This document shows positions 38,458 through 60,431 of a DNA stretch of 64,000 nucleotides, piece by piece. A program made the position numbers and the translations under genes. The notes under the pieces were generated by a model that was not told the origin of the DNA, searched no databases, and saw nothing but the letters and a program-made list of their open reading frames with translations. The stretch is from Sedimenticola sp. (GTDB taxonomy: Bacteria; Pseudomonadota; Gammaproteobacteria; Chromatiales; Chromatiaceae): the NCBI GenBank assembly GCA_002869585.1, contig PKUO01000045.1, forward strand, positions 1 through 64,000. Reading direction: 5' to 3'. Each line of letters starts with the position of its first letter. The first letter of the stretch is position 1.

Positions 38458-38460
38458 TTT

Positions 38461-39308: not shown

Positions 39309-39788
39309 TCATTGACCCTTGCGGGGTGATCCGTAGAGATCGAGCAGTCTGAGCCGGGCCGCACTCAGGCGTTCTGACATGACCGGCATGATGCGCGAGT
39401 AGAGTTCATAGCCCAGGCTGTGATCGGCCTCCGCCTTCTCCCGAAGGCAGGCGGCATCGATGGCAATCACCCGGGTGAGCTGGATTGCGCGGGCGTCAAA
39501 CAGCCAGTGGTAGGGCGGAACCAGCCAAGACCAGCCGAGCACATCCCCTTCGTGCAGGGTTTCCAGCGTAACGCTGGTCTGTCCCTGGGTATGCACCTCG
39601 ATTGCCACTGCCCCATGGCGGATCAGATAGAAGTGGTCGGCGTTATCGCCTTCCCGAATCAGATACTGGCCAGCCTCGAAACTCTGATTGCTGGCGCAAC
39701 CGGCAATCATCGCCTGGTAGCCGGGTTCCATGCCGCTAAAGAAAGGGTGTTCGCTGATCATCCTGTCGATACCTTCAACCGAAACCAT
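39309..39788 (-). CDS. Cyclic nucleotide-binding domain protein in hydrogenase operon
   Basis: 159 residues: a CAP-type effector domain alone ([61 protein letters not shown]), without a DNA-binding helix-turn-helix. The phosphate-binding-cassette arginine pattern is not canonical (GWSWLVPP). One base separates it from the beta-subunit gene upstream and it overlaps the gamma gene. A direct regulatory or structural role in the hydrogenase is suggested by position only. Confidence 0.88.
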
Positions 39789-39789
39789 G

Positions 39790-40911: not shown

Positions 40912-41232
40912 GATTTCACATCCCGAGATCGCAAAACCTAAATACAAGTCTAGAAGGTCTTTTGGTAAATATGTGAGATTCACGGCAGTTGTCATAAGTT
41001 ATTGCCGTAGATCAAAAAAACACTCAACTGCCAGTGCTTCTGTGTCCGGGCAGCCGTCAGGGGATAGCGCAAATAAAGCAGAAAATCCTTAAAGAACGGT
41101 GTCTGTATGCCGATAACTAGAAATAGGATCCCATGGGATAGGCCCTAGAATTACTAAAAAAATGGAAAATTTTCAGTACATTAGCCTGTTTTGGCAGGTC
41201 AAATTCGAATACCAACCCTCTGGCAAACACGA

Positions 41233-43062
41233 ATGAGGAATGAACGGCTTGGGTTGATTATGATTCTGGCCTCTCTGCTGGTCATCGGGGTTATAGCGAC
41301 CTTATTGCTCAATAACCAACTATCCAGCCGGGAGGATCGCATTCGCTCCCAGGGTACCAACCTGGCGCGTCTGCTCGGTGAAATACCCTGGGAACAGCTG
41401 GCCAATACCGACGAGCGGCAAAGCCCGCTACAGATTATGGGCGAGAGTCAGGGTGATCCCGATTTTGCCTACGGGGTGGTAGTTTCGGCCGACGGTCAGG
41501 CGAGGCGGCAGGTCACAGAGCCGGGGGTGATTATTCCATCTGACCCACTTCCCCAGGAGCCGAGCGGCTGGCTGGGTGAGCGGATAATAGACCAGGGTGA
41601 TTCACGCAGGCCTTTTATCGAGTTCCATGCGCCGCTCTTTTCACAAGGTGAGTTCAGCGGTTATATCCGCCTGGGTTACTTCAAACCCTCATTTGGGCTG
41701 AGCCAGCAGGAGATCTCGTTTGTAGCAACCCTGGCGTTGCCCATTTTCTTACTCACACCGCTCTTCTATTTCATGCTGCGGATGGAGGTTCGTCCGCTCA
41801 GACAGGTGAACCAACGGGTTGAACAGTTGCTGGAGGAGGGGGGCGCGAACCGGGTAGAACTTCACGCCAGCGGTGAACTGAGTGAATTCATCGATCGATT
41901 TACCAATTATATAGAGTTTTCCCGTTCGCGAATCGCGGATCTGGAGAATGAGCAGAGAGGCCTGGTTACCTCAACCAAGCTGCTGAGTTACCGACAATCA
42001 CGTGTCGAGTCAGTTCTTAAAACAATACCCGATGCCATCGTGGTTCTGGATGAGGCCGGGGCGATCAGTTACGTCAATCCAAAGGTATCGATGATGCTTG
42101 GTATCGATGCCGAGGATCTACGGGGTAAGACTGCTAGCGAATGGTGTATCAGCCCGGAGATTCTCAGTTACCTGTCACGTTTCGAGTCAGGACATCTCTC
42201 GGGCAATGTTCCTGACCCCATCCGTTTTACACCTGAGCTAAACAAAAGTATTACCGTTGAGATGCGGGCCTATCCACTGTTTTCACCCAAAAACGAGGCT
42301 GACGTGCTGGGTACACTGGTGGTGTTGCATGATGTCAGTAAAGAGCAGCAGAGTGATCGAAGTCGCGGTGAATTTGTGGCCCAGGTGGCTCATGAGTTGA
42401 AAACGCCTTTGAATGTGCTTTCCCTGTATAGCGAATCTCTGATCGGAGAAGACGGTGGGGATGAGGCGTTTCGGGTTGAGGCAGTCAATATCATCCATGA
42501 CGAAGTGGAACGACTGGCGTCGCTGATCAACAATCTGCTGGCCATCACCAATTTCGAACTGGGCAGCTCACCTTTGAATAAACAGCGCATCAGGATCAGT
42601 GAATTTCTGGAAGATGCATTTAACAATATTTCACAAAGTGGCAAAGGAAAGGGTCTTCAGTTCACCATGGATCTGCCGAAAGAGGTGAATGCGATCAATG
42701 CCGATAAGGAGATGCTGCGAATCGCGGTGAACAACCTTTTGACCAATGCAATAAAATACAACCGTCCCAACGGCAGTGTCATCCTGGCGCTGGAAGAGGC
42801 TGATAAATATATCGATATTATCGTTACTGACACCGGAATAGGCATCTCTCCGGAGGATCAGAAAAACATCTACGAGAAATTCTATCGCTCCGACAATGAA
42901 GATGTGCGGGCACAACCCGGGCATGGCCTGGGATTGTCACTGGTTCAGGAGATTGTCCTGCTGCATGGTGGCAGGCTGATTCTTGACAGTGCCCCAGGCA
43001 AGGGAAGCCGCTTTACCATTCGGCTGAACAAGTCTTCCGGAAATATGGGATTTGTGGCATGA
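41233..43062 (+). CDS. PAS-containing membrane histidine kinase
   Basis: 609 residues from ATG 41233 (MRNERLGLIMILASL); a TTG at 41191 is an alternative and neither has a clear ribosome site. TM1 ~6-26, periplasmic sensor ~27-165, TM2 ~170-195, a PAS domain ~255-375, HisKA with VAQVAHELKTPLN (phosphorylated His387), and a full HATPase_c (NNLLTNAIKYN, DTGIGISPEDQ, GHGLGLSLVQEIV). Coupled to a stand-alone receiver by ATGA overlap. Confidence 0.92.
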   Translation: MRNERLGLIMILASLLVIGVIATLLLNNQLSSREDRIRSQGTNLARLLGEIPWEQLANTDERQSPLQIMGESQGDPDFAYGVVVSADGQARRQVTEPGVIIPSDPLPQEPSGWLGERIIDQGDSRRPFIEFHAPLFSQGEFSGYIRLGYFKPSFGLSQQEISFVATLALPIFLLTPLFYFMLRMEVRPLRQVNQRVEQLLEEGGANRVELHASGELSEFIDRFTNYIEFSRSRIADLENEQRGLVTSTKLLSYRQSRVESVLKTIPDAIVVLDEAGAISYVNPKVSMMLGIDAEDLRGKTASEWCISPEILSYLSRFESGHLSGNVPDPIRFTPELNKSITVEMRAYPLFSPKNEADVLGTLVVLHDVSKEQQSDRSRGEFVAQVAHELKTPLNVLSLYSESLIGEDGGDEAFRVEAVNIIHDEVERLASLINNLLAITNFELGSSPLNKQRIRISEFLEDAFNNISQSGKGKGLQFTMDLPKEVNAINADKEMLRIAVNNLLTNAIKYNRPNGSVILALEEADKYIDIIVTDTGIGISPEDQKNIYEKFYRSDNEDVRAQPGHGLGLSLVQEIVLLHGGRLILDSAPGKGSRFTIRLNKSSGNMGFVA

Positions 43063-43430
43063 AACGTGTTCTGATTGCTGACGATGAACCACACGTTATC
43101 CGCGTTTTGAAGCAGGTGCTGATGCGTGCCGGCTACCATGTCGATTCTGTCAACAATGGCAATGAGGCACTGAACTACCTACTGGAAAATCCACTGGATA
43201 TCCTTATTACCGATATCCAGATGCAGAAGATGAGCGGTGATCAACTGTGCCGGGTGATCGATGCGAACATGCCCGATCGGGAATTCGCCATCATCGTAAT
43301 GACCTCGAGGACGGAACGTGAGCACAGAGCTTGGGCAAGTAAAATCGGGAATCTGACTTTTCTGGAAAAGCCGATAAGCATCAGACAGTTGCTGTCTGAG
43401 TTGGAAGTCTGTTCCAGCAGGGTGGGCTAG
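43059..43430 (+). CDS. Stand-alone response regulator receiver
   Basis: 123 residues, only a CheY-like receiver. Asp9/Asp10 acidic pair (ADDEP), phosphoacceptor Asp52 (LITDIQM), Thr in MTSRTE and Lys in FLEKPIS. No output domain; it could act on the following EAL protein or on the pilus ATPase, like CheY-like modulators in other pilus systems. Nine bases before the next gene. Confidence 0.92.
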   Translation: MKRVLIADDEPHVIRVLKQVLMRAGYHVDSVNNGNEALNYLLENPLDILITDIQMQKMSGDQLCRVIDANMPDREFAIIVMTSRTEREHRAWASKIGNLTFLEKPISIRQLLSELEVCSSRVG

Positions 43431-43438
43431 GAAGTAGC

Positions 43439-45625
43439 ATGGAGAACCTCGCACATACTCTTTCCCAGGTCAACTTCGAAATTCATGCACGCCTGATGCA
43501 TCGATTATTTCCGGATATCTCGGCAATTGTCGTGTTGACCCAGGGTGGAGAGGTGGTTTGGCAGGAAGGCATAGTCAGTGATGATATGCACAAGCAAACG
43601 CTTTCCTGTCTATTCAAGTTTCCAGGGACTGACTCTGCGTCAAAACCGGCTAACATGTACCGTTTTACCGAGAGCAGGTTGTTATGCTGTAGCCCACTGA
43701 ATGATGTGCATGGTTTACCACTGGCGGTCATTGGCATACTGTTCCGCGGGATGTAATTAAAAAATCTACAGGAAGAGATCGAAAATCAGGTCGCAGAGAT
43801 CGCATCAATTCTGCAAAATGATATGCAGATGAACCTTGAATTGGCAACCATGGCGGATGATCTTTCAGAACGCTACGAAGAGTTGAATCTCATTTTTCGT
43901 TCTGATGACCATGTTCTGGAAATCAACAAGGGCAGGGAGATGTTGAATCGTTTGGTTGATAGTTGCATCATGTTCCTGGATGTTGCCGCAGTTTCCTTGT
44001 TGCTTCCGGGAAAAGACATTGAAATCATGAAGATAAATCCTGGACAGGAATTTATCTATCCAGCGACACTTATCAGTTTTATCAAACGTGAACTTATACC
44101 GGCGATATTTGATCAACGCAATCCAATCGTCATTAACTCCCTTTCAGATTTCCAGTCGGCAGGCGCCTACCCGGATATTTTTAAGGCTTACCGTGTGTTG
44201 TCGGTACCTGTAGAAACAGGTGAGCACGAGTGTGCAGGAGTTTTGAGTGTAGTTATCCCAACGCAAAAGCGGGACTTCACCAACAGTGACAGAAATCTGT
44301 TGGGAAATGTCGCAAAAAAAGTTGCCTCCGTGATTTTGACCAGCTTCGATAAGCTGACCGGACTTGCAAATAGAGCCTTACTCGAGTCCGAAATTGAACG
44401 GTTGCTGCAGACAAGCAAAGAACTGGCCATCGATCACGCTATTATCGATTGTGATGTGGATAAACTGCAGATAGTCAACGATATCTGCGGCAATAGCGCG
44501 GGTGATGATTTGCTGCGACTGATCGGTAAAACCATCCGGAAAGAGGTGGGTGAGGGGGGGCTGGTCAGCCGTGTGGGTAGCGACGAGTTCTGTATTCTAT
44601 TGGAACAGACTACCTTGAGTCAGGCTTTTGAATTGGCCCGTGTTATTCGCTCCCGGGTTAACAGTCTTATATTTGAGCGAGAAGGTTATACTTTTGAAGT
44701 CAACTTAAGCATTGGTGTGGCGCCTATCACCGGTGAGTGTGAATCGGCAAGTACCCTGCTCAGCTCGGTTGAAGTGGCATGCAATGCGGCCAAGGATAAG
44801 GGGAGAAACCAGATACAGATGTATGTGCCGGATGATTCGGAACTTTTGCGTCGACGTGGTGAGATGCACTGGGTCAGCCGGATCCAAAAGGCTTTGCATG
44901 AAGATCGCTTCATTCTCTATGCGCAACCGATTTGTCCGACAGACGGGTCGGACGAACATAAGCATTACGAAATTCTCCTGCGTCTTCGAGATGAGGAGGG
45001 TCAGATTCTTTCGCCAGGTGCATTCATCCCTGCTGCGGAACATTTTAATCTGATGCCCGCGATAGATCGTTGGGTTATAAGGAATACCTTTCAACTGCTT
45101 GCCCGCGTTTGGCAAAAACTACCGAAACAACAACACACCTTTTCCCTGAATCTCTCTGGTCAGTCCCTGACCGACGAAGGGTTTGATGACTTTCTGGTAC
45201 AGCAGATTGAACAGAGCACAATTCCTAATGACTGGCTCTGTTTTGAAATTACTGAGTCTGCGGCCATTTCCAACCTTAAACAGGCCAAGGCCTTGATCGC
45301 GAAGGTGAAGCGTTTAGGGTGTCAAATTTCACTGGATGATTTTGGATCAGGTCTCAGTTCATACAGCTACCTCAGGGATTTTGATGTCGATTGTCTGAAA
45401 ATTGATGGTGCTTTTATCCGTAATATAGTCACTGATAATGTTACCCGCACCATGGTCTCTGCGATGAACCAGATTGGCCATGCAATGGGGTTGTCTACCG
45501 TAGGAGAGTGGGTGGAGAATCCGGAGATATTTGAACAGTTACGTTTGATCGGTGTGGATTTCGCCCAGGGTTATGAATTAGGCAGGCCCCAACAACTGAT
45601 AGATATTCTGGATTGCACTAAGTAG
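43439..45625 (+). pseudogene. GAF-like/GGDEF/EAL c-di-GMP protein interrupted by in-frame TAA
   Basis: A 105-residue N-terminal part (MENLAHTLSQVNFEIHARL) ends at TAA 43754-43756, but the same frame continues without any shift through a coiled coil (LKNLQEEIENQVAEIAS), GAF-like sensor, GGDEF and EAL domains. GGDEF reads RVGSDEF, acceptable for activity; the EAL set is YEILLRL (EIL), FEITES, SLDDFGSG, KIDGAFI and AQGYELGRP, so a phosphodiesterase is likely. Translation could restart at the ATG at 43823 to give 600 residues. The stop is one substitution away from a sense codon. The gene is directly followed by the pilus ATPase gene. Confidence 0.75.
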
Positions 45626-47734
45626 ATGAATACCATGAGCCAGAATTTTGATGCCAAAACTGAAGATCGGATCGAGGGAAAAGCCAACCACGAAGCCACG
45701 TATGACTCCCTAAATCGTACGCGCATTGGCACCATGACCTATCTGGCACCAAGTCATCTGAATACCACGGAAGAGCAGGAAACTGTCAGACAGGCTATAG
45801 ATGAATGCGTCAATCAGCAGGAATTGCAGATTGTAATCGACCTCGCCGAAATTGGTGTTCTAAGAAGTACCATCCTGGAACTTTTTCTGGATTGCCAGGA
45901 GATGCTGGCCCGCAGGGGTGGTTGGTTGAGACTGACCAACCTGAATGCAATACTCAGAGAAGTCCTGCGTATGACCGGATTGAATCACTCCATAGGGGTA
46001 ATCTCGGTCGATGATGTAGAACAAACTGCGCCACCGCATACAGCCAGCGACGCCAGAAATCGTCGCATGGGTGATTTGCTGATCGACAGAGGATTGATCA
46101 CCGAGGCGCGCGTCAAAGAGGCAATCGGTTTGCAGGGAAAACTCGGCAAACGCATGGGACAGATACTGGTTGATCGTGGCTGGGTTGCCGAACAGGATAT
46201 GCTGATGGCCCTGGCCGGGCAGTTATCATTGCCGTTTGTTCGGTTGAGATCCGGGTTGTTCGATCCAGATATCGCTGGACAACTGCCCAGAGAGGTAGCG
46301 CGTCGGCTCAAGGTTTTACCTCTGTTCAAGATTCGTGATGATCTCTTTCTTGCTACATCAGATCCCCAGGCGGTTGCCACTGTCGAGGAGGTTGTCGAGC
46401 GCACGGGTTGTAATATTCTTCTGGTTATCACCAAGCGTGATGAAATTATCAAGACGATCAATGACGCCTATGGTGATGCCGATTTCGCAGCGGATTTTAT
46501 CGGCGATTTTGATGAAGACCTGGAACTGGTCGAAACCGCGCAGTTGGAAGATTATACAACCATTGACGAACTTGCCGCCGGCAGCCCGGTTATCAACCTT
46601 GTCAATTCGATTATTCAGCGCGCTATTCATGATGGGGCCAGCGACATCCATATCGAGCCAGCGCGGGGCAAGTGTCGAGTGCGTTTTCGTATCGATGGTT
46701 TGCTCTATGAGGTTTTCAGCCCGAAAATCGAACTGCATCCAGCGCTGGTTTCGCGCCTCAAGGTCATGGCAAATCTGGATATTGCCGAGCGTCGCATGCC
46801 TCAGGATGGACGCATACAGGTGCATACTAACGGGCGTTCTGTTGATCTACGTTTCAGTTCACTACCTGGCCTCTATGGCGAAAAGGTGGTGCTGCGTGTC
46901 CTGGACAAGAATCAGGCGATTCTTGATGTCAATAAACTGGGTATGACCGACGAGAATCTGCATATCTACAAAAACCTGCTGGATCGCAGTTACGGACTTA
47001 TTCTGGTAACCGGGCCAACTGGAAGCGGTAAGACCACCAGCCTGTATGCAGCGATTAACTATCTCAACAGCATCGAGAAAAACATCGTCACCATCGAAGA
47101 TCCGGTAGAGTATCAGATCGATATCATCAATCAGAATGAAGTCAGGGCAAACATCGGCCTGACCTTCGCCAAGATGCTCAAGCATGTTCTCCGGCAGGAT
47201 CCGGATGTAGTGATGGTGGGCGAGATCCGCGAACGTGAGACAGCGGAAATTGCCGTTCAGGCGGCCCTGACTGGCCATCTGGTTCTCTCGACCCTTCATA
47301 CTAATGACAGTGTCGGGGCGGTATCACGCATGATCGATATGGGGGTTGAGCCCTATCTGCTCTCATCGGCATTGATCGGCGTGGTGGCTCAGCGACTTGT
47401 TCGTCAGGTCTGCCCCAGTTGTAAAACCACATACCTGGCATCACCCGACATGATCGAACGCTATGGCTGGCAGGATCAGGGGCAGGTGCGTTTGGTCAAG
47501 GGCAGGGGTTGTGTCGAGTGTTACGATTCCGGTTACCGGGGGCGCATGGGGCTGCATGAAATTGTTGAGGCTAATGGGGATCTTCAGAGATTGATTATCT
47601 CGAACCCCAGCCGTGATCAGCTGACTCAGTATATGCAGGAGGCCGGCATCAAAACACTCTATAGCGATGGTCTTGGCAGGGTGCTCGAGGGCAGAACCTC
47701 ATTGGAAGAGGTCCACCGGGTTGTGAATATATAG
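45626..47734 (+). CDS. Type IV pilus/MSHA-like assembly ATPase with STAS and MshEN domains
   Basis: 702 residues; ATG directly follows the upstream stop. Residues ~30-130 are a STAS (anti-anti-sigma-like) domain: TYLAPSHLNTTEEQETVRQ, IVIDLAEIGVLRSTILEL. Residues 147-200 hold two MshEN c-di-GMP motifs, RMGDLLIDRGLITEARVKEA and RMGQILVDRGWVAEQDMLMA, each closing with Gln. The GspE/PilB ATPase (310-702) has Walker A GPTGSGKTT, Asp box, DPDVVMVGEIRERETAEIA (Walker B), GHLVLSTLHTND (His box) and a zinc site Cys596/599/629/632. It powers fibre extension. The STAS fusion is unusual. Confidence 0.95.
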   Translation: MNTMSQNFDAKTEDRIEGKANHEATYDSLNRTRIGTMTYLAPSHLNTTEEQETVRQAIDECVNQQELQIVIDLAEIGVLRSTILELFLDCQEMLARRGGWLRLTNLNAILREVLRMTGLNHSIGVISVDDVEQTAPPHTASDARNRRMGDLLIDRGLITEARVKEAIGLQGKLGKRMGQILVDRGWVAEQDMLMALAGQLSLPFVRLRSGLFDPDIAGQLPREVARRLKVLPLFKIRDDLFLATSDPQAVATVEEVVERTGCNILLVITKRDEIIKTINDAYGDADFAADFIGDFDEDLELVETAQLEDYTTIDELAAGSPVINLVNSIIQRAIHDGASDIHIEPARGKCRVRFRIDGLLYEVFSPKIELHPALVSRLKVMANLDIAERRMPQDGRIQVHTNGRSVDLRFSSLPGLYGEKVVLRVLDKNQAILDVNKLGMTDENLHIYKNLLDRSYGLILVTGPTGSGKTTSLYAAINYLNSIEKNIVTIEDPVEYQIDIINQNEVRANIGLTFAKMLKHVLRQDPDVVMVGEIRERETAEIAVQAALTGHLVLSTLHTNDSVGAVSRMIDMGVEPYLLSSALIGVVAQRLVRQVCPSCKTTYLASPDMIERYGWQDQGQVRLVKGRGCVECYDSGYRGRMGLHEIVEANGDLQRLIISNPSRDQLTQYMQEAGIKTLYSDGLGRVLEGRTSLEEVHRVVNI

Positions 47735-47743
47735 GTAACTACC

Positions 47744-48871
47744 TTGGCACTGGAACTTAAAACCGAGAATACTGATGTCGTGGATCGGGGCCGCCGTTCG
47801 GGTTGGGAAACCCTGAATAACTTCCGAATGGGCAAGCGGATTACCAACCGGGATCGGATGTTTTTCACCGAGCAGTTGGCGCTGCTGCTGGAGACTGGCA
47901 CCAATCTGCATGCCAGTCTGCAGGCGCTTCGCCGGCAGGTGGGCGACACGCCATTGGCGTTGCTGATCGAAAAGCTGATCGAGGATGTATCTGAGGGCAA
48001 GACCTTCTCCTTTGCCCTCTCACGTCATCCCACCGTATTCAGCCGGACCTATGTGAATGTGATAGCAGCCAGTGAAGCCGGTGGCTTCATGCACCAGATG
48101 CTCCAGCAACTCCAGGAGATGGAAGAGAAGCGCGATCGGCTACGCAGCACCCTGGTCTCGGCACTAGCATATCCGGTATTTCTGATCCTGTTTTCCATTG
48201 CGGTGGTGATTTTCGTGCTGGCGGTGGTTTTTCCGAAATTCGCCGAACTTTTCGCCTCCATCGAGAATCAGTTGCCGGTAACCACGAAATGGCTGATGTC
48301 AGCGAGTGATCTGCTGGTCAACCACTGGCCCTGGTTACTGCTGGGGATTGGACTGGTGATGGTGCTGATGCGCGCCTGGCTACTCACAGAAAGTGGTAAA
48401 CTGACCATCGATCGGACGAAGCTCGGGTTACCCGGGCTTCGAAGCATATTTGTAAAACTTTATATGGTTCAGTCGCTTCGGGTGATGGGACTCTCAATGG
48501 GTAATGGAGTCGGCGTCATGGATACCCTCCAGGCCTGTCGTGAGCTGATCCAGAACCGACTGTTTGAGGCCTTCATTATTGATGTTGAAACACGCGTTCG
48601 CCAGGGTTCGGGCATAGCCTCGGGTTTTGCCAGTTCCTCATTCGTACCGCAGGTTGTGGCGCAGATGGTGACCACCGGTGAAGAGACCGGAAACCTGTCC
48701 AAGGTTATGCGGCGATTGGCAGACCACTATGAAAAAGAGCTGGAGCGGAGTCTGACACTGTTCTCCAAGATGGTAGAGCCGGTGATGTTGCTGGTAATGG
48801 GATTGATTGTGGGGTTGCTGGCCAGTTCCCTGATTCTGCCGATTTTCAAACTCTCGCGCGCGGTGCAATGA
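47744..48871 (+). CDS. PilC/GspF-type inner-membrane platform protein
   Basis: 375 residues from TTG 47744 (GGTAACTACC upstream); a later ATG is possible. Two GspF domains of ~120 residues (FFTEQLALLLETGTNLHASL ... / YMVQSLRVMGLSMGNGVGVMDTL...) and three membrane segments. Organises pseudopilin addition with the ATPase encoded just upstream. Confidence 0.93.
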   Translation: MALELKTENTDVVDRGRRSGWETLNNFRMGKRITNRDRMFFTEQLALLLETGTNLHASLQALRRQVGDTPLALLIEKLIEDVSEGKTFSFALSRHPTVFSRTYVNVIAASEAGGFMHQMLQQLQEMEEKRDRLRSTLVSALAYPVFLILFSIAVVIFVLAVVFPKFAELFASIENQLPVTTKWLMSASDLLVNHWPWLLLGIGLVMVLMRAWLLTESGKLTIDRTKLGLPGLRSIFVKLYMVQSLRVMGLSMGNGVGVMDTLQACRELIQNRLFEAFIIDVETRVRQGSGIASGFASSSFVPQVVAQMVTTGEETGNLSKVMRRLADHYEKELERSLTLFSKMVEPVMLLVMGLIVGLLASSLILPIFKLSRAVQ

Positions 48872-48936
48872 AAAAAAACTAAAGGTTTGGGCAAAACCGT
48901 CGCTAATCAGAATGTATAAATCAAAAGGACAGTAAA

Positions 48937-49518
48937 GTGGGGCCTACTAACATGCTTGGGAAATATAGCCAAAAGGGTTTTACCCTGGTTGAAGTACTGA
49001 TTGTCGTGATTATCCTGGCAATTTTGGCGGCAATCGTTGTGCCACAATTCTCCTCATCCACACAGGATGCGAAGGTGTCATCGCTCGACACCAGTCTGGC
49101 GAATATGCGTTCAGCAATTGATCTCTATCATCAGCAGCATGGTGATTACCCCAGTGCCAAAACCGCGGTGCCGGGTAACTGTGCAGGTACTGCGGGCACC
49201 GGTGCGATCAACACACCTGCGGCCTTCCAGGATCAGCTGGCCTACTATACGAATGCAACGGGGCAGGCCTGTACCACCAAGGATGATGGCGCGGGCGACA
49301 CCAACGCCTATCCTTTTGGCCCCTATCTGAAGAAACGTGACTTGCCCACAAATCCGATCAGTTTGGATGCCACCCTGGTAGTGGTGAATGCTGGGGATCT
49401 GAATATGGCGGGTTCCAATCCGGCAGGCGGCTGGCGTTTTGACAACAAGACCGGCAAATTCATTGCTGATGATTCGGTGAATACAGACGCCAATAGTGTT
49501 ACTTACGATAAACACTGA
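48937..49518 (+). CDS. Major pseudopilin, GspG/MshA-like
   Basis: 193 residues from GTG 48937 (AAAGGA upstream) or ATG 48952. Prepilin signal KG^FTLVEVLIVVIILAILAA with Glu5. The rest is soluble, with one Cys pair (NCAGTAG, QACTTK) and a C-terminal PAGGWRFDNKTGKF as in GspG/MshA family. Likely the main fibre subunit. Prepilin peptidase is not in the window. Confidence 0.88.
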   Translation: MGPTNMLGKYSQKGFTLVEVLIVVIILAILAAIVVPQFSSSTQDAKVSSLDTSLANMRSAIDLYHQQHGDYPSAKTAVPGNCAGTAGTGAINTPAAFQDQLAYYTNATGQACTTKDDGAGDTNAYPFGPYLKKRDLPTNPISLDATLVVVNAGDLNMAGSNPAGGWRFDNKTGKFIADDSVNTDANSVTYDKH

Positions 49519-49568
49519 TTGGTAGCTGATGGTGGTTTCGCTATGGACACTGACACTTGCATTTCAGC

Positions 49569-50129
49569 ATGAAAAGTCAGAATGGTCTGAGCCTGGTTGA
49601 ACTCACTGTCGTCATCATGATCCTGGTGATTGTCGCTGTGGTGGCAATCCCTCATCTTGCTTCCACAGATCCCCACAGAATCGAATTGGCTGCCAAGCAA
49701 GTGGCCGGAGCGATTCGCTTTGCCCGCTCGGAATCGATTCGCACAGGAGAGGTCCACGGGGTTGCCGTGGACTACAACCAGAGTGATGCCGCGGGTAAGG
49801 AGATCACCGTCTACAAGGCTGATCTGGCCCAGAGTCCGTTTGCCGTTGACAGCATCGCTTATCACCCGGTCGATAAACAGCCTTATGATCGGATGATCAC
49901 AGAAACCTACCTTACGCGGGGGATTGGCTTTCTTAACACCGCCCATGTATTCGACATTCAGGGGCAGGGCAGAAAGGCCCATCTGCACTTCACCGCTCAA
50001 GGGGTTCCCGTCTATTTCGTTGCAGGGAAACCTTATCGCCTGATTAACGGCACTATTCGTATAGGTGACAGCACATTTGAAAAAGTGGTCACTGTGGCTC
50101 CCCTGGTTGGCCGGGTAAAGGTGCAATGA
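49569..50129 (+). CDS. Minor pseudopilin, GspH/MshC-like
   Basis: 186 residues from ATG 49569; a TTG four codons upstream is less likely. Prepilin signal NG^LSLVELTVVIMILVIVAVVAI, then GspH-type core with ELAAKQVAGAIRFARSESIRTGE. The last codon overlaps the next ATG (AATGA). Confidence 0.85.
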   Translation: MKSQNGLSLVELTVVIMILVIVAVVAIPHLASTDPHRIELAAKQVAGAIRFARSESIRTGEVHGVAVDYNQSDAAGKEITVYKADLAQSPFAVDSIAYHPVDKQPYDRMITETYLTRGIGFLNTAHVFDIQGQGRKAHLHFTAQGVPVYFVAGKPYRLINGTIRIGDSTFEKVVTVAPLVGRVKVQ

Positions 50130-50557
50130 ACCGGAAAAGGTCAATGATCCAACAAGGTTTCTCCTACATGGAGATGCTGGTTGCTATCGCTCTGATTACG
50201 GTCACGTTGATACCTGCCCTGGATTCCCTGCAGTCGGGTATCCAGGGTAGTGGCATTTATAGCGCAGAGACCGACAGCCACTATTGGCTGCGCTCGAAGG
50301 TGGATGAACTCATGGCCATGAATTACTCGATGCTTGTCGAACAGGCCACTGACATCGATGATCCACTGAATATAGAGGATAACCTGTCCGATGCCTTGGG
50401 CAGTGATAAGCGTCGACTGGTCTATCTGGCCCACTACGATGGGGATAACAAAGACGGCGATAATGATCCCTTTACCGGTGTTGACCACGGTCTGTTATGG
50501 ATTCGGGTAGAGCTTGCAGGGCAGCATCATTTCCTTGAAACTCTGATCCGGCGCTGA
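50126..50557 (+). CDS. Minor pseudopilin, PilV/MshD-like
   Basis: 143 residues. Prepilin signal QG^FSYMEMLVAIALITVTLIP with Glu5, short soluble domain rich in Asp (YDGDNKDGDNDPFTGVD, a Ca2+-binding-loop-like stretch). Overlaps the previous stop. Confidence 0.85.
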   Translation: MNRKRSMIQQGFSYMEMLVAIALITVTLIPALDSLQSGIQGSGIYSAETDSHYWLRSKVDELMAMNYSMLVEQATDIDDPLNIEDNLSDALGSDKRRLVYLAHYDGDNKDGDNDPFTGVDHGLLWIRVELAGQHHFLETLIRR

Positions 50558-50567
50558 AGGTGGACTC

Positions 50568-51557
50568 GTGACGATGCTGATCAGAAATCCAAGATACCAG
50601 CAAGGCGTCACCTTTATCGAGGTACTGATCGTTGCTGTTATCGCGGGTCTGCTGATTGTCGGGCTGAATGGAATCGTCGGCCAGGCGTTGCAGTCCAAAC
50701 AGCAGACCGAATCAAGGAACCAGCTTTCCCGGGATGCGAATTTTGCCCTGCAGCGGATGATCCAGGCCCTTTCACATACCCGCTTGCTGCTACTTCCTTT
50801 TCCCGATAAGCCCTCGACCAATGATACGGAGAATATCCGGGAACAGACTGATCCTTCCTCACTGAAAACAGATACCAATGCCCTGGATACTGCGGTCTTG
50901 GCCATGACGCTCCCTGCCTATGTTGATCTCAATGCCGATGGTGTAGCTGATGCAGATAACGACGGTGACGGTCGGTTTGATGAGGATCTGCCCGCAGATT
51001 CTACAAATGATGATGCACCGGGTATCAGGGGGATTGATGACGATGATGACGGTTGGCTCGACGGCTGGTTTGTCAAAGAGAATGACGATGAAGAGTTTTA
51101 TGTAAGAGATGAAGATCCCATCAACGGCAATGATGATGATGGAGACGTCAGTATAGATGAGGATCCACCGGCCGACATGAATGCTGATGGTTGTCCGGGT
51201 GACTGTTATGTGGATGATGACGGTGATGGGGCGGTCGATGAAGGGGATGTGGCCGATGACGATGAGGATGGCAGCACGAACGAGGATTGGTACGATCCAC
51301 TGGTTTTCTACTTCAATAACGGCACGTTGATTGAGCGTACACCGGTGCCCTGGGACGAAAGTGGTAATGGCAGCATTACTGGTCAGGATTACGTCACCTC
51401 GGTCATTGCGGAGCATGTGCGGCGTTTCCGAGTGGAGCGGATTGCTCAGGGCACTGATCCAGGATTGCGGGTGGATATCCTTCTTGAACTACATGATCCT
51501 GAGACCGGTGAGACAGCCAGTTTGCGCACCCAGGTACTGGTGGGAAGCGCCTTGTGA
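50568..51557 (+). CDS. Pseudopilin (GspJ/PilW-like) with Asp-rich calcium-binding-type repeats
   Basis: 329 residues from GTG 50568 or ATG 50574. Prepilin signal QG^VTFIEVLIVAVIAGLLIVG with Glu5. Residues ~120-245 are extremely acidic with repeated DxNxDGxxD / DxDxDGxxDE loops (DLNADGVADADNDGDGRFDE, DDDDDGWLDGW, DDDGDGAVDEG), as in thrombospondin type 3/dockerin Ca2+ loops; most minor pilins lack this. The C-terminal domain returns to GspJ-like strands. Its stop overlaps the adhesin start (GTGA). Confidence 0.85.
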   Translation: MTMLIRNPRYQQGVTFIEVLIVAVIAGLLIVGLNGIVGQALQSKQQTESRNQLSRDANFALQRMIQALSHTRLLLLPFPDKPSTNDTENIREQTDPSSLKTDTNALDTAVLAMTLPAYVDLNADGVADADNDGDGRFDEDLPADSTNDDAPGIRGIDDDDDGWLDGWFVKENDDEEFYVRDEDPINGNDDDGDVSIDEDPPADMNADGCPGDCYVDDDGDGAVDEGDVADDDEDGSTNEDWYDPLVFYFNNGTLIERTPVPWDESGNGSITGQDYVTSVIAEHVRRFRVERIAQGTDPGLRVDILLELHDPETGETASLRTQVLVGSAL

Positions 51558-54931: not shown

Positions 54932-55076
54932 GGTTATAAGCTGTTTCAGGGGTCGGGATTGTGTGGTGGTGACTCTGACTACATTATCACTATTTCTTCC
55001 TAAAGAATTCCAGATTCTGCACGCTATATTCACTGAATAGATGAATTCTGTGTCATCAGGGGAATAATAATTAAAA

Positions 55077-56267
55077 ATGCACCATTTTACATCAGGTACT
55101 GATGCCGGGGGGCTGAATCAGTACTTTAAGAAATTATCCAGACTCTGGTCTCTGTCCCGCTACGGGCAGTCCGAGCTTTCCGCCTATGCCGAACAACTAC
55201 TCTACTTGGATGCTAGAAGTGGCGTTATCCTGTTGTGTTCGGTCACTTTTTTGCTTTTGGGCTCGTCCGCGCTGCTCTATGCCTTACTCGGATTTGACCA
55301 GATCTATATCTATACCAGCGGTCTGTTAGGGTTTTTGGCGCTGCACCTGGCGATCTCTGCCAGAACGGTGAATGACACCAAGGTGCTCTATCTGCTGGGT
55401 ATTACGCTGATTGTCATCGTGGGTGTAGCCTTTGTGCTGCTCGCACACCATTCCCAGGGATTTACCGCGGAGTTGTTTTCCAGCGTGGTTCTGTTGTTTC
55501 TGCTGCTGCCGCTGGTTCCTTGGGGATTGCGCGAGGCCCTGATTATCGTGCTGCTGATTTACCTGGTGTTTACCCTGTCGACATTGACGGTGGAGGGGCG
55601 TTTCAGCAATCAGACACTCTGGACGTTGCAGTTTGTAATGGTTGGTTCTGCACTGACCTCGCTGACGGTGATCGCACGCAGTATTCTTGTGCGAAAGCAT
55701 GACGTGTTGACGCGCTTTGAGCTTGAGAAGGCGCGTCACCGCATGGAGTTGTTGTCGTTGAAAGATCCGTTAACCGGTGCCTGGAACAGGCGTTTTCTGG
55801 AGCAGCGTTTCCCAGAGTTTCTCGAAAAATATCGCGAACAACAACAGCCGTTCCACTTTGCCCTTATCGATATCGATAATTTCAAGCGTATTAATGACAC
55901 CCAGGGGCATGACTACGGTGATCTGGTGTTAAAGCGCCTGGTGGCAAACCTGGTAACCCGTTTCTCCGGCGGTGAACACCTGGTCAGGGTTGGCGGTGAC
56001 GAGTTTGCGTTGATGTGTGATTGTGATCCGCCAACGGTGTTGTTGCAAAGAGTGTCAGAGGCATTGAAAACCGATCCGGAACTCTTTGGCGCGAGCGCGG
56101 ATATTCAAGTATCCATCAGCGCAGGTATTGCCACCTTCGAGCCACAAGACGATATCAGCCTGGAAACCATCTACCGCGAGGCAGATAAGGCGCTCTATCG
56201 CGCCAAGGCGCGGGGTGATGGCAGTAGACGGGATAGTGGCTATGAGCATGTATTGCATCAGGCGTAG
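55077..56267 (+). CDS. Membrane-bound diguanylate cyclase (GGDEF)
   Basis: 396 residues: about five to six membrane segments in ~45-210 (with no named sensor), then GGDEF ~225-390. Active site RVGGDEF (306-310), with DIDNFKRINDTQGHDYGD. The inhibitory RxxD site upstream is absent (FSGGEHLVRV). Likely makes c-di-GMP for the MshEN ATPase in the same locus. ATG at 55077. Confidence 0.9.
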   Translation: MHHFTSGTDAGGLNQYFKKLSRLWSLSRYGQSELSAYAEQLLYLDARSGVILLCSVTFLLLGSSALLYALLGFDQIYIYTSGLLGFLALHLAISARTVNDTKVLYLLGITLIVIVGVAFVLLAHHSQGFTAELFSSVVLLFLLLPLVPWGLREALIIVLLIYLVFTLSTLTVEGRFSNQTLWTLQFVMVGSALTSLTVIARSILVRKHDVLTRFELEKARHRMELLSLKDPLTGAWNRRFLEQRFPEFLEKYREQQQPFHFALIDIDNFKRINDTQGHDYGDLVLKRLVANLVTRFSGGEHLVRVGGDEFALMCDCDPPTVLLQRVSEALKTDPELFGASADIQVSISAGIATFEPQDDISLETIYREADKALYRAKARGDGSRRDSGYEHVLHQA

Positions 56268-56270
56268 ATA

Positions 56271-57404
56271 ATGTTTTCACTGAAACGACGCACATTGGCT
56301 TCGCGCCGGTTGACGGTTTCGCCGAAAACGGTTGGTCCCATCGGTGTGGATCTCGCGTATGGGAAACTCTATATGGTGCAACTCCAGCGTGATAGTCAGA
56401 AACAGATCTTGCTGTTGGCCTGCTGCCACATTGATTACGATATCTCCCGTGATGAGTTGCTGGAGAGTCCGGTTGTTTTCAAATCGCTGATCAAGGCAGC
56501 GCTTAAAAAAGGACCATTTCATGGCAGGTAGGTGGTCGCTGCATTGCCCTCGACCGATGTACGGATTCTCCCAATCGCCTATCAAAAGAGCCCGCAGGGT
56601 GATGCGAAGAGCATAATCGATCAGTTGCAGCAACGCATCGACGGAAGTCTGGATGATTATGTGATCGATTATCGACTGTTGCGCTCCAATCCCTCAGATG
56701 AGGAGAATCTGGCGCTGGTGGTGATGGCGAAACGGGAGAAAGTCATAAGCTATCTGCAGATTTATGAGCAGGCAGGTCTCAGACCAAAGGCGCTGGATGT
56801 TGGGCCTACCGCGATCCAGCGTCTGATTAGTGCCATTCCCACAACAAAGCAGGAGACGGTGCTGGTCATCAATACCGCACGTACCAAGAGTTATCTGACT
56901 ATTGTCTCGGTGCAGCGCCTCTTGTTGGATCAGGAGATTCAGTTCAGTGAATTTCAGGTGCTGAACAAGCTTGCCGAAGCGCTGGATATTGATTATTCGA
57001 TGGCGGAGGAGTTGATCAGAAAAAATGGTCTGATTAATGACAGAAAAAGTAACAGCGGTACACTTTCTCTGGATATCAATGACGTTTCCGTCGTTATTCA
57101 TGAAATATGCAAGCCCCAGTTCCTGAAGTTGGTTGAGTCGATCAACCGATTGCTGGTATTCAGCGCCTCTGAGACACGGGGTGTTCCTGTTTCCAGGGTA
57201 TATCTGCTCGGTGCTGTGGGGCGCTGGAAAGGCTCAGATCTGTTGCTCAGGTCCATGCTGAATATCGAAGTGGCACCAATCCGCGAGGAGGATGATTTCT
57301 ACGCCTGTTTCCCCATTGTCAAGGGAAAGTCGGTGAATGGCATTGTCCCGGAGATGGTGAAGGCCACAGGTTACGCATTGCGGGGTCTGGTGGGCGATGC
57401 ATGA
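56271..57404 (+). pseudogene. PilM/MshI-like protein with in-frame TAG after 86 codons
   Basis: N-terminal 86 residues (MFSLKRRTLASRRL...VGPIGVDLAYGKLYMVQL, ATPase-fold phosphate-1 strand) end FHGR-TAG at 56529-56531. The same frame goes on at once with VVAALPSTDVRILPIAY, the usual PilM continuation; homologues read GRKVV, so AAG to TAG is one substitution. The remaining 290 residues are an actin-like PilM core ending ATGYALRGLVGDA. A GTG directly follows the TAG. The protein normally recruits PilN/O to the inner-membrane ring. Pseudogene, error, or readthrough. Confidence 0.75.
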
Positions 57405-58053
57405 TATTGACCTGATTCCTGAGGATTACCGCAGAGGCAAAAGCCAGTCACGACGGCTGCGTGGCGTCTTGATCGCTGGGATATTGATCTTGCTCGCCAA
57501 TGGCATCGGCTTTGCCGTGATCAAATATCTGAGTCAACAGGTTGAAACAGATATCCGCTTACTTGAAGGCCAGCGCAATATCTCCAACCAGCAACACAGT
57601 GAACTGAATCGTCTGCAAGATGAGCATAGGGGTTTGGATGTGCAGTGGCAGTTGTTGAAAGGTCTGCAGGGTGGCGTTTCCGCTGAGCGCATACTGTTGA
57701 CCGTGGATCGCGCCCTCAAGGGTGATGATGTCTGGTTTATGAATTGGCAGTTCACGCGGGCGGGGGTGATGACCCGGCTCGAGGATGAGGCAATCAACAG
57801 CGGGTATTTCATCGTAGTACCCAGAAGTGGTACCGGCAAGAGTGAAGAAGGGCTGAAGATTGAAACGCACATGACCATTGATGGGCAGGCGGTCGATCAT
57901 TCCGCATTGTCTGAGTTCGTTTCCAGGCTCATTGATCAACCGGGCATTACCAATGTCAAGGTGCTGCGTACAACACTGCGTGAACAGCAAGAGGCCAAAC
58001 TGGTTGACTTCAGCCTGGCCATCAGTGTTTTCGGAAAGGCGGGGCAGGGCTGA
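57397..58053 (+). CDS. PilN-like inner-membrane alignment protein
   Basis: 218 residues: short N-terminal tail DLIPEDYRRGKSQSRRLRG with the PilM-binding motif, one membrane segment ~25-45 (VLIAGILILLANGIGFAVIKY), then coiled coil and a ferredoxin-like fold. Overlaps the PilM stop and the next start. Confidence 0.88.
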   Translation: MHDIDLIPEDYRRGKSQSRRLRGVLIAGILILLANGIGFAVIKYLSQQVETDIRLLEGQRNISNQQHSELNRLQDEHRGLDVQWQLLKGLQGGVSAERILLTVDRALKGDDVWFMNWQFTRAGVMTRLEDEAINSGYFIVVPRSGTGKSEEGLKIETHMTIDGQAVDHSALSEFVSRLIDQPGITNVKVLRTTLREQQEAKLVDFSLAISVFGKAGQG

Positions 58054-58610
58054 TGCGCGGGGTGATCTCCAGGCAGGAACCCCGGACCCTTGGCATGTTG
58101 CTGGTCATGTTATTGCTCGCCATAACTGTGTTGCTGTTTACCTTTGTACAGTGGCCAGCGATCAAGAACTATCGCGCAGCATTGGAGAGCCGTGAACATC
58201 TCGGCGCCAATATTCGTACCAGTGAACAGCTTGTCGAACGTCTGGCAATGGAAAAGGCCTCGATCGAGGCGCTGAACAAGCGACTGCATGGTGATATGAC
58301 GGGTTTGCCCATTGAGCAGATGGAGGCCTATGTCATTGGGCGTTTGCAGAAGCTTTCCTGGAATGCGGGTGTTGAGCTGATCGGGGTCAGGCCCCGTGAG
58401 GGGCAGCAGGTGGAGATCTTTCGCGAGATCCTATTCGATGTTGAGGTGACCGGGCGTTATTTCGATTTCTTCAACTGGCTGCGTTCGGTGGGTAATGATC
58501 TGGGATTTGTCGTGGTGAAAAGCTTTGAGATCAGGCCGGTGAACACCACTCAGGAGGATCCTGAATTGCGGGTTGTTCTGGGTATGGCGGCGTATCGGGT
58601 GGAACGATGA
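58053..58610 (+). CDS. PilO-like inner-membrane alignment protein (MshJ-like)
   Basis: 185 residues: one N-terminal membrane segment (TLGMLLVMLLLAITVLLFTFVQWP), coiled coil, then a PilO-like ferredoxin fold (YFDFFNWLRSVGNDLGFVVVKSFEIRP). One base overlaps the PilN stop. Pairs with PilN in the alignment subcomplex. Confidence 0.87.
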   Translation: MRGVISRQEPRTLGMLLVMLLLAITVLLFTFVQWPAIKNYRAALESREHLGANIRTSEQLVERLAMEKASIEALNKRLHGDMTGLPIEQMEAYVIGRLQKLSWNAGVELIGVRPREGQQVEIFREILFDVEVTGRYFDFFNWLRSVGNDLGFVVVKSFEIRPVNTTQEDPELRVVLGMAAYRVER

Positions 58611-58987
58611 TCAGGCCAATCTTATCAAGAGTTTCAATGCTCCTGCCGCTAGTTGTTATGAGTGTCATGGTTTATGCAGAGGATGCCGGCCTGGTTCCTG
58701 GTCACAACCCGTTTATGCGTCCCGGTGTTTTGCCGCAGAAAACGGTGGATGAGCATGTGGGCGCGGTCCGGACATCCGTAGCGCCGAAATTCAGATTGCG
58801 AGCCGTGATGCTGGCTGGAGCTCAAGGCATGGTGCTGATAGATGAAAACCTGATCGCCATCGGTGAAGAGGTGGATGGTTATCGGTTACTGTCTGTCAGC
58901 GAGCGGATGGCGGTATTTCAGGGCGAAGATAAGCAGTATCAGATTTCACTAGATCAGGGTGCAACAGATAATAATGATGTTTTCTAA
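58607..58987 (+). CDS. PilP/MshK-like pilotin-type connector
   Basis: 126 residues: signal peptide or anchor (MLLPLVVMSVMVYA), the C-terminal ~75 residues form the small beta domain that contacts the secretin in PilP/GspC/MshK (FRLRAVMLAGAQGMVLIDENLIAIGEEV...). Overlaps the PilO stop. Confidence 0.82.
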   Translation: MIRPILSRVSMLLPLVVMSVMVYAEDAGLVPGHNPFMRPGVLPQKTVDEHVGAVRTSVAPKFRLRAVMLAGAQGMVLIDENLIAIGEEVDGYRLLSVSERMAVFQGEDKQYQISLDQGATDNNDVF

Positions 58988-59018
58988 TTCAGTCGATTGC
59001 AGGGTAAAACTTCCTCGC

Positions 59019-60431
59019 ATGCGTTCTGTAAGGCACGGATACTGGCTATGCACGGCTGTGTTTCTCTGGGCCCTGATTTTTCCTGTAATATCGGCGGCGG
59101 AGTCACTGACTCTGTCACTCCAGGAGGTGGAGCTGCGCGAGGTGATGCAGATGCTGTCGCGCCAGGGACGGACCAATATTCTGGTGGCAGATGGGGTTGA
59201 TGGTGAGGTTTCTATCAACCTCTATGATGTCGAGCTGGAACAGGCGATCTACTCTATTGTCGATGCCGCCGGTTTTGCAGTAGAGAAGCGTGGCAACAAC
59301 TATTTCATTATTCCGCGCGAAGATGCTGGGAAATACAATGCCGGGGGCATGACCCAGCTGCGTACCTACAAAATCCAGTACTCCAGTACCAATGAGATGG
59401 AGACCATCGTCAGGAATCATCTCTCCAGCTATGGCAAGATCACCAAGCTGAATGAGCGCAAGATGCTGGTGGTTGAGGATACCCCGGAGTTTCTTGATCG
59501 CATCGATCAGTTGCTCAAGGAACTTGATCGTGAACCCAGGCAGATTCTCATTGAGGCAAAAATCCTGCAGGTGACCTTACAGGACAATGAATCTTATGGC
59601 CTGGACTGGTCGAAACTGTTCACCAGTGATGGCGGAGAGGGCCGGTTTGGTACACGCGGACTCTCCGGTTCTTCGACCAACGGGTTCTATTTTGAACTGC
59701 TGACGCCGAATATCGAGGTACTGCTCGATACCCTGAAAACCCGAGGTCGTCTGCGCACGCTTTCAACCCCGAAGCTGTTGACGATCGAGGACAAAGAGGC
59801 CTCTGCCGTCGTAGGTGACCGGATTGGCTTCAAGGTGACAACTACCACTAACCAGGTGACTACCGAGAGTATTGAATTCCTGGAATCTGGTGTCATTCTA
59901 AAAGTCACCCCTTCAGTCAATGAGCACGGACAGGTTCTGCTGAAGATCGCCCCCGAGGTGAGTACCGGAACCGTCTCAGACGATGGTATTCCCTCAAAAA
60001 ACACCACCCAGGTGATGACCAATATGCTGGTGCCGGATGGACAGACAGTCTTCATTGGTGGCTTGATGAAGCAAAGCATCGATGAGAGCCGCGAGGGGGT
60101 GCCGATTCTGGGTGATATTCCTGCTATTGGTTTGCTCTTTTCGAATCGCGCCAAGAATATCGTCAACACAGAGACGGTTGTGCTGATCACGCCTAAAATT
60201 GTGGGCCAGCAATTCCACGATGTAGATTCGGAGATACAGTCGACAAGGGACACCGAGGGTGTGTTGAAACACACCGCCAATGGCATGAAGCTGCGCCTGG
60301 ATACATTGCTGGATGGTAAATCACGGGTTGTAACACCGACTGAACCGATGAATCCTCCGGAACCGCCTGTGGTGGCGCCATCAGCAGCGACCAACGGTGC
60401 GGAGAGAATTTTTTCAATGGGAGAGCACTGA
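59019..60431 (+). CDS. mshL: MshL-type secretin
   Basis: 470 residues from ATG 59019, which gives the best signal peptide (MRSVRHGYWLCTAVFLWALI..., cleavage after SAA); in-frame ATGs at 58974 and 58977 are alternatives overlapping the previous gene. N0/STN domain (EVELREVMQMLSRQGRTNIL), secretin N1-like domain, then the secretin core (AILVEAK-like RQILIEAKILQVTL, DTLKTRGRLRTLSTPKLLT, VPDGQTVFIGGLMKQSIDESREGVPILGDIP, VVLITPKIV). Forms the outer-membrane pore for the fibre. Closing gene of the locus. Confidence 0.93.
   Translation: MRSVRHGYWLCTAVFLWALIFPVISAAESLTLSLQEVELREVMQMLSRQGRTNILVADGVDGEVSINLYDVELEQAIYSIVDAAGFAVEKRGNNYFIIPREDAGKYNAGGMTQLRTYKIQYSSTNEMETIVRNHLSSYGKITKLNERKMLVVEDTPEFLDRIDQLLKELDREPRQILIEAKILQVTLQDNESYGLDWSKLFTSDGGEGRFGTRGLSGSSTNGFYFELLTPNIEVLLDTLKTRGRLRTLSTPKLLTIEDKEASAVVGDRIGFKVTTTTNQVTTESIEFLESGVILKVTPSVNEHGQVLLKIAPEVSTGTVSDDGIPSKNTTQVMTNMLVPDGQTVFIGGLMKQSIDESREGVPILGDIPAIGLLFSNRAKNIVNTETVVLITPKIVGQQFHDVDSEIQSTRDTEGVLKHTANGMKLRLDTLLDGKSRVVTPTEPMNPPEPPVVAPSAATNGAERIFSMGEH

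Follow-up and report, generated by a model that had tools for sequence, protein, structure and literature searches.

Binding of cyclic di-GMP (c-di-GMP) by the motor of a type IV filament was first described for MshE (PMC11656802), and the domain concerned, MshEN, consists of two 24-residue motifs joined by a 5-residue spacer, with key arginine, glycine and glutamine residues (Wang et al. 2016, PMC5013675); these and the other papers named here are cited from excerpts. The model by which Denise et al. recognize the mannose-sensitive haemagglutinin (MSHA) pilus has mshM as a mandatory gene, together with mshA, mshE, mshG and mshL, and the same paper describes type IVa pili (T4aP) as diverse and paraphyletic (PMC6668835). 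In minor-pilin complexes, the subunit that lacks the glutamate at position +5 (Glu5) caps the complex as a rule (PMC10191384), and binding modules grafted onto pilins are known from the modular pilins PilB and PilC of Streptococcus sanguinis (PMC8179133). Elements of all these systems, and also of the type II secretion system (T2SS), come together in one locus of Sedimenticola sp. (assembly GCA_002869585.1), which lies in the first 64,000 nucleotides of contig PKUO01000045.1, the stretch of DNA analysed here and called the window below. This locus is real and conserved; it encodes a type IV filament with a modular adhesin at its tip, together with its own c-di-GMP enzymes. We consider it likely that the filament is one of its own kind, bearing a modular K-type tip adhesin and assembled under the control of c-di-GMP, and that the copy in the window is probably impaired.

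The locus is a block of 16 genes, all on the forward strand, which extends from 41191/41233 to 60431 and was read from the open reading frame (ORF) listing and from Pfam and NCBIfam scans of the window, with 17 ORFs scanned in 41191-60431. A sensor histidine kinase is followed by a receiver, a GAF-GGDEF-EAL protein, an ATPase, a platform protein, a GspG-like pilin, three more pilins, a large tip protein, a GGDEF protein, PilM, PilN, PilO, a PilP-like protein and a secretin, and most of these proteins pass the curated Pfam cut-off (Table 1). The locus therefore holds the ATPase, the platform and the pilin with class III signal that define the type IV filament superfamily, plus the secretin of a diderm, and every part that the initial annotation had listed, from sensor kinase to secretin, is present. 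When the window proteins were mapped on the loci collected from other genomes and duplicates were dropped, 43 other distinct loci remained that share the core order, nearly all with the arrangement of the window, and this synteny rules out a chance collection of ORFs. Counted over loci long enough to judge, the kinase is present in 31 of 32, the receiver in 39 of 40, the EAL gene in 40 of 42, the platform gene in 34 of 34 and the GspG-like pilin gene in 30 of 30, while the next three pilin genes are found in 23 of 29 (in locus L201 only through an overlapping match of the first pilin), 23 of 28 and 22 of 26. Downstream, 19 of 23 evaluable loci have an adhesin-type gene, L094 by a short C-terminal match only. 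In the 19 loci with at least 9.9 kb downstream, the cyclase was seen in at least 11, PilM in at least 11 and the secretin in at least 10, several stretches ending earlier. The earlier idea of an attachment-type fibre with local c-di-GMP enzymes is borne out to the extent that these genes are conserved as a unit.

Table 1. Genes and in-frame stop codons of the filament locus in the window, with profile scores
Feature	Position	Strand	Evidence and remarks
PAS sensor histidine kinase	41233..43062	+	frame open from TTG 41191, ATG at 41233; HisKA 55.9 bits, HATPase_c 97.1 bits
Single-domain response regulator, receiver only	43059..43430	+	Response_reg 85.9 bits
N-domain/GAF/GGDEF/EAL gene	43439..45625	+	EAL 226.5 bits, GGDEF 108.4 bits; interrupted by in-frame TAA
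In-frame TAA in GAF-GGDEF-EAL gene	43754-43756	+	sequence; no stop in relatives' frames
Motor ATPase, STAS + MshEN + T2SSE	45626..47734	+	T2SSE 466 bits, MshEN 52.3, STAS 31.7 (cut-off 22.6)
Platform protein, GspF/PilC family	47744..48871	+	T2SSF 167.6 bits, two stretches
GspG-like pilin, probable major subunit	48937..49518	+	Glu5 present; N_methyl 36.8 bits
H-type minor pilin	49557..50129	+	N_methyl 22.8 bits; GspH weak, 15.7
I-type minor pilin	50126..50557	+	by position and homologues; N_methyl 15.2 bits, below cut-off 21.2
J-type minor pilin	50568..51557	+	N_methyl 24.8 bits; acidic DxDxDG repeats
K-type tip pilin fused to large adhesin, 1125 aa	51554..54931	+	CBM96 94.5 bits, Ldl_recept_b 39.6, DNRLRE 168.8
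Diguanylate cyclase	55077..56267	+	canonical GGDEF, 119.6 bits; hydrophobic N-terminal half
pilM	56271..57404	+	PilM_2 47.9 bits; interrupted by in-frame TAG
In-frame TAG in pilM, codon 87	56529-56531	+	sequence; no stop in relatives' frames
PilN-like inner-membrane protein	57397..58053	+	PilN 25.6 bits, cut-off 22.8
PilO-like protein	58053..58610	+	PilO 35.6 bits, cut-off 22
PilP/GspB-like periplasmic protein	58607..58987	+	T2SSB 13.1 bits, under 28.4; by position and homologues in relatives
Secretin	58959..60431	+	Secretin 140.3 bits, Secretin_N 36.9

The motor ATPase shares with the described MshEN proteins the two 24-residue motifs (RLGxx...LxxQ), the 5-residue spacer and the arginine, glycine and glutamine residues, and it differs from them in a preceding STAS domain with a conserved serine, which the initial annotation had missed. 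The N-terminal STAS domain spans residues 28-128 or so and MshEN about 142-285, followed by the T2SSE core. Over 44 aligned rows, Arg147 is kept in 35, Gly149 in 42 and Gln170 in 43 in the first motif, and Arg176 in 40, Gly178 in 42 and Gln199 in 43 in the second; position 11 of motif 2 is Trp in 39 of the 44 rows, where the published motif has L, V or I. The predicted MshEN region superposes on V. cholerae MshE with bound c-di-GMP (5htl_A) at a root-mean-square deviation of 1.8 Å and a TM score of 0.88 on the target, and motif and fold together suggest that the motor would bind c-di-GMP through this domain. The mean pLDDT (predicted local distance difference test) of the ATPase model is 57.7 overall, with a weak ATPase core, and the STAS region is well modelled (block means of 86-93 over residues 31-120). 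Its fold match is TM1081 (2ka5, E-value 4.3e-4), placed in the STAS part by the length of the match. Ser81 of this domain, conserved in 41 of 44 rows, sits at what we take to be the place where anti-sigma-antagonists are phosphorylated. STAS goes unmentioned in the main texts of PMC5013675, PMC6668835 and PMC11656802, and neither a motor combining STAS with MshEN nor a symbiont c-di-GMP pilus of such a kind was found in the open-licence literature, so that the word undescribed is provisional here. The excerpts of PMC12175321 report tad and type IV pilus genes of Woeseiaceae and contain no description of the locus.

The genes predicted to make and remove c-di-GMP stand in the same block. In the GAF-GGDEF-EAL protein, eight positions of the EAL domain that we take to be catalytic (metal- or substrate-binding) are intact in 41 of 41 rows, the window included, and the GG(D/E)EF motif is kept in only 8 of 41 and degenerate in 33; because of this pattern, the protein should act as a phosphodiesterase. 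The separate cyclase shows GGDE(F/Y) in 13 of its 15 aligned rows, and two rows stop short of the motif. At the position that is presumably its usual RxxD product-inhibition site, read from the alignment listing, Asp occurs in 0 of 13 rows. Upstream, the phospho-acceptor His of the kinase is present in 37 of 37 aligned rows, and the kinase/receiver pair would be the probable sensory input. Assembly of the fibre is most likely gated by c-di-GMP, which the GGDEF enzyme would make, the EAL enzyme would remove and the ATPase would bind via MshEN, with the STAS domain as a second control point that is still unexplained. The Sedimenticola genome, 3.9 Mb in size, has 48 GGDEF matches, so that the local cyclase would act against a busy c-di-GMP background.

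In the fibre itself, the GspF-like platform and the STAS-MshEN ATPase would polymerise the GspG-like pilin, for which GspG is the best NCBIfam model (56.1 bits, under the cut-off of 88.85), and the set of H-, I-, J- and K-type minor pilins would prime it. A complex of the PilM/N/O/P type and a dedicated secretin would then take the fibre through the envelope; the PilO-like protein also has a T2SSM_b match, under the cut-off (17.7 of 21.7 bits). The J-type pilin carries DxDxDG repeats, which we take to be Ca-binding-like, and 2-6 of them are found per copy in all listed relatives whose gene is not cut by a contig end. The calcium-loop-like repeats are conserved, and calcium may matter for the fibre tip.

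The K-type subunit combines a pilin helix, two jelly rolls of the DNRLRE/CBM96 type, an alpha/beta segment, a propeller of the low-density lipoprotein (LDL)-receptor-B type and a C-terminal jelly roll. Its N-terminus resembles a pilin-type subunit by a GspK match (E-value 3.9e-6, 26.6 bits, under the cut-off of 130), and the +5 residue is Pro in 19 of the 22 adhesin N-termini shown, Ala, Thr or Ser in the rest and never Glu; because Glu5 is absent, the subunit should sit at the tip. Of the 11 aligned adhesin members, all match CBM96 and Disaggr_repeat and 7 match Laminin_G_3, with the LDL-receptor-B propeller confined to the window's protein; the outer modules therefore appear to be exchanged. 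The model of residues 96-264 matches a chondroitin-sulfate carbohydrate-binding module (Z 20.8, 165 residues aligned, 3.1 Å) and that of residues 102-262 an alginate-binding one (Z 17.9, 156 residues aligned, 2.4 Å), which points to polysaccharide binding by the tip, a common fold being no proof of the ligand. The mean pLDDT of the adhesin model is 56.2; the alpha/beta segment (about residues 500-710) and the propeller are poorly modelled, and no fold is claimed for the former. The tip protein would accordingly be described as a modular adhesin, a pilin part with CBM96-type jelly rolls and exchangeable C-terminal modules.

With its pilin helix, sub-threshold GspK match and CBM96 and other modules behind, the tip protein has the make-up of a modular pilin. 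Grafted binding modules on a pilin are common to it and to S. sanguinis PilB and PilC, and Laminin_G_3/ConA-type lectin modules (PF13385) occur both here and in the modular pilins surveyed in the same excerpts (PMC8179133). Unlike in the S. sanguinis type, the subunit here is a K-type one lacking Glu5, has jelly rolls of the CBM96 type, to which the window's protein adds a propeller, and is encoded in a c-di-GMP operon. Two other loci have adhesin-type genes (L189 12344-14845 and, reversed, L200 10792-12804) in which similarity to the window's adhesin starts only after the first CBM96 module, and this suggests module replacement inside the pilin part. A toxin function was rejected: the matches to the tetanus toxin heavy chain (by alignment profile) and to iota toxin chains, as well as the match of one adhesin member to a clostridial receptor-binding family, reflect common beta-sandwich folds. 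Matches to the prodomain of transforming growth factor (TGF)-beta were likewise taken as jelly-roll similarity only.

The initial annotation called the locus MSHA-like, which holds for the c-di-GMP domain of the motor, MshE-like in motif and fold, and is not supported for kinship. Three other filament systems are encoded in the Sedimenticola genome, namely an MSHA system on contig C93, a T2SS on C36 and T4aP genes on C85 and C76. Their secretins pass their own models (MshL 282.9 bits against a cut-off of 250.2 on C93, GspD 488 against 351.35 on C36, PilQ 531.2 against 284.35 on C76), and the C36 ATPase passes GspE (671.2 against 630.25). The window's secretin stays under all three cut-offs, with 143.2 bits for MshL (TIGR02519), 201.6 for GspD and 206.8 for PilQ, and the window's ATPase is under those of GspE (593.8) and PilB (577.4 against 675.65). 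The ATPase score alone cannot exclude MSHA, because the MSHA motor of the same genome likewise fails both ATPase models. In the ATPase tree, the 44 STAS-type rows lie on one side of a branch with an SH-aLRT (Shimodaira-Hasegawa-like approximate likelihood ratio test) support of 100, also on the ATPase-core columns alone, and the genome's own MSHA motor forms a separate group with four neighbours, again at 100 in this tree of few references. The platform tree sets the locus rows apart from the known rows at 100, the nearest of these being T2SS rows.

That the locus is a divergent MSHA pilus, the same machine reshuffled and given extra signalling genes, is on this evidence very improbable. It has in its favour the MshEN-type ATPase, a kind of motor whose c-di-GMP binding was first seen in MshE, and the partial MshL similarity of the secretin, which however scores higher with the PilQ and GspD models. 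Neither MshM nor MshN was found among the 17 ORFs scanned, where no AAA-type match other than the motor appeared (the mshM profile of Denise et al. was not run), an MshL-passing secretin sits in the separate MSHA locus on another contig, and in the tree the ATPase does not group with the genome's own MSHA motor, so that MSHA membership was rejected. The locus has in common with the MSHA pilus of the Vibrio/Shewanella type the MshEN-type motor domain, a secretin, a platform, pilins and the absence of a retraction ATPase from the locus. It departs from that pilus in the STAS domain on the motor, in the local kinase, receiver, phosphodiesterase and often cyclase, and in failing the MshL model. 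The MSHA label should be dropped.

An ordinary T2SS locus, without the adhesin in relatives, had been named at the outset as the result that would contradict the fibre, and the neighbourhood comparison went the other way, with the adhesin-type gene in most evaluable loci and the GspD and GspE cut-offs missed. The PilM/N/O families in place of GspC/L/M add to the rejection of this candidate. A variant T2SS that exports proteins, with the large K-type protein as a secretion-tip adaptor and no adhesin, is unlikely as well. The GspG-like major pilin, the H-I-J-K set, the GspF- and GspE-like scores and the proximity of T2SS rows in the platform tree would suit it, whereas the inner-membrane families, cut-offs that the genome's own T2SS does reach, and carbohydrate-binding-type modules on the tip subunit of all 11 aligned members do not. 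What is shared with the T2SS is the GspG-like major pilin, the GspF-like platform and a K-type tip subunit without Glu5; the inner-membrane complex, the low-scoring secretin and ATPase and the carbohydrate-binding-type tip modules are the differences.

With T4aP the locus shares the inner-membrane complex of the PilM/N/O/P type and minor pilins of the H-I-J-K type, and it is quite conceivable, if short of an even chance, that it is an attachment-specialised sub-branch of the diverse T4aP, with PilM/N/O/P and a PilQ-like secretin, and no separate subtype. PilQ is the best secretin model, the PilM, PilN and PilO families are those of T4aP, and a group as diverse and paraphyletic as T4aP (PMC6668835) has room for such a branch. 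Against this, the PilQ and PilB cut-offs are missed, the Pfam scans found nothing of the pilT or pilY1 type in the locus, the K-type pilin has the adhesin fused to it, and other contigs carry the genome's own T4aP genes. Elsewhere in the genome there are shorter ATPase matches, of PilT size, which could serve retraction. On the reading preferred here, a filament of its own kind, one may tentatively go further and see a further bacterial type IV filament subtype. This would be a surface fibre with a motor of two inputs, one being c-di-GMP by way of MshEN and the other a STAS switch that bears a conserved serine; its operon would include a phosphodiesterase and often a cyclase of its own, and the K-type tip adhesin on display would be one that is frequently remodelled.

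The STAS-MshEN region of the ATPase served as the query for relatives. Of 194 genomes in the window's family, 170 gave a match at an E-value of 0.001, mostly to other MshEN-type motors, and only 7 genomes, the own included, match at 2e-76 or better, the next value being 1e-24. The class sample yielded matches at 1e-30 in 16 of 369 genomes, the own one among them, across 13 families, and the phylum sample in 2 of 398, namely the own genome and one of another class. Named genomes were scanned with six short peptide patterns, a non-exhaustive scan from which the best 80 of 288 loci were kept, and 24 of these 80 (L079-L101 and L111) show 57-67% identity; the match covers most of the STAS part in 22 of the 24 and a smaller share of it in L098 and L099. 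Some examples of named carriers are symbionts of Escarpia, Lamellibrachia, Olavius and lucinids (two Thiodiazotropha); others are Woeseia, Ectothiorhodospiraceae, and further metagenome-assembled genomes (MAGs; free-living or from sediment), one of them labelled Rhodospirillales. As for the initial suggestion of host or sediment binding, the carriers stem from sources of both kinds, which leaves the two options indistinguishable. Within genus g20 the STAS-type motor is patchy, with two genomes carrying it (G020 and G098) and four without a close match (G067, G119, G137 and G151). The position of the minor-pilin/adhesin cassette also varies. It stands before the kinase gene in L071, the second to fourth pilin genes follow the secretin gene in L093, and an adhesin-type match precedes the kinase gene in L201; the displaced cassettes look as if exchanged as a module.

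Two genes of the window's copy are interrupted by in-frame stops, which the initial annotation had also missed. The EAL gene is split in one frame into 43439-43756 and 43823-45625, the downstream piece being open from an ATG at 43823 with the whole GGDEF-EAL region intact, and pilM into 56271-56531 and 56532-57404, open again from a GTG at 56532. The EAL gene is a single frame of at least 690 aa in 39 of 40 relatives scoring at least 250 bits, and the fortieth, with 687 aa, ends at a contig edge; two separate proteins at this place are ruled out by the single frame of the relatives. Likewise, pilM is a single frame of at least 370 aa in 15 of 16 relatives, and the sixteenth ends with its stretch. 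Homology at the N-terminus was seen as well. The remaining genes of the locus have uninterrupted frames. As a background in the same genome, stops were seen in 0 of 68 ABC_tran matches and in 2 of 48 GGDEF matches, of which one is near a contig end and one is weak. As regards an alternative genetic code, both TAA and TAG occur among the stops of the locus, and the 68 ABC_tran matches are free of internal stops. A second pilus motor gene of the genome looks broken too, the T4aP pilB at C85:260931-262586 (L004/L186), where two in-frame stops, some 24 codons from each other, lie close to the 3' end.

In this genome the system is probably impaired, since there is one nonsense codon in the phosphodiesterase gene and another in pilM; the stops would fit relaxed selection acting on pilus genes as well as assembly errors at these places. 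The chances are about even that the copy is a dead remnant, with both stops real and the fibre not made in this organism. One nonsense codon in each of two genes that have none in relatives, the two further stops in pilB and the low background all lean that way. On the other hand, the other genes are uninterrupted, the EAL piece behind the stop has an ATG start and a complete GGDEF-EAL region, assembly error could account for the stops, and there is no close relative for a selection test.

Several points weigh against reading the locus as a c-di-GMP-gated filament of its own kind with an impaired copy. The support is computational, and the structure models are weak outside the STAS and MshEN regions and the first jelly rolls of the adhesin. 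The trees are quick ones with few references, and their known rows lie on long branches. Similarity to the window was the criterion for collecting the STAS rows, so that their grouping is partly built in; the ATPase tree united neither the own and E. coli GspE nor the own PilB and E. coli HofB, and the secretin tree splits the locus from known rows at an SH-aLRT of only 88. The gene content also varies, as 4 of 23 evaluable loci have no downstream adhesin-type gene, L197 lacks the EAL gene, and L200 lacks kinase, receiver and EAL gene. The cyclase, seen in 11 of 19 loci, some of them cut short, may not be obligatory. Finally, both stops could be assembly errors, and the impaired part of the reading would then fall.

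On its 3' side, the locus is flanked by a radical-SAM gene and then two U32 peptidase genes, and on its 5' side by an NiFe-hydrogenase-type operon on the opposite strand. In G098 the radical-SAM gene lies on a contig other than the 313-kb contig of the locus; in G020 and G030 gene and locus are on separate contigs as well, but these assemblies are too fragmented to tell. The gene had no match in G143, G144 and G037. In none of these genomes was an empty site readable, and the only genome of the same genus has merely a 36% match. The hydrogenase-type operon includes cyclic nucleotide monophosphate (cNMP)-binding and Fe-S genes, and beside it are a multihaem-type cytochrome gene and a cytochrome b561 gene (33587-35795 and 36378-40995). 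Genes for V-type ATPase subunits (A-type catalytic, I and C/AC39 by Pfam) are found on the reverse strand at 26078-32364, in a genome whose family is gammaproteobacterial.

A conserved variant within the type IV pilus family, provisionally an undescribed one, seems to be encoded here, and its carriers are scattered bacteria, most of them marine. A maker, a breaker and a receptor of c-di-GMP beside the machine that they would control make it a clean case in which to test local c-di-GMP signalling. Since it is found in tubeworm, lucinid and gutless-worm symbionts and in other marine MAGs, it is also a candidate attachment organelle for host contact. If the subtype reading is true, free-living and symbiotic marine gammaproteobacteria would use the fibre for regulated attachment to polysaccharide-covered surfaces.

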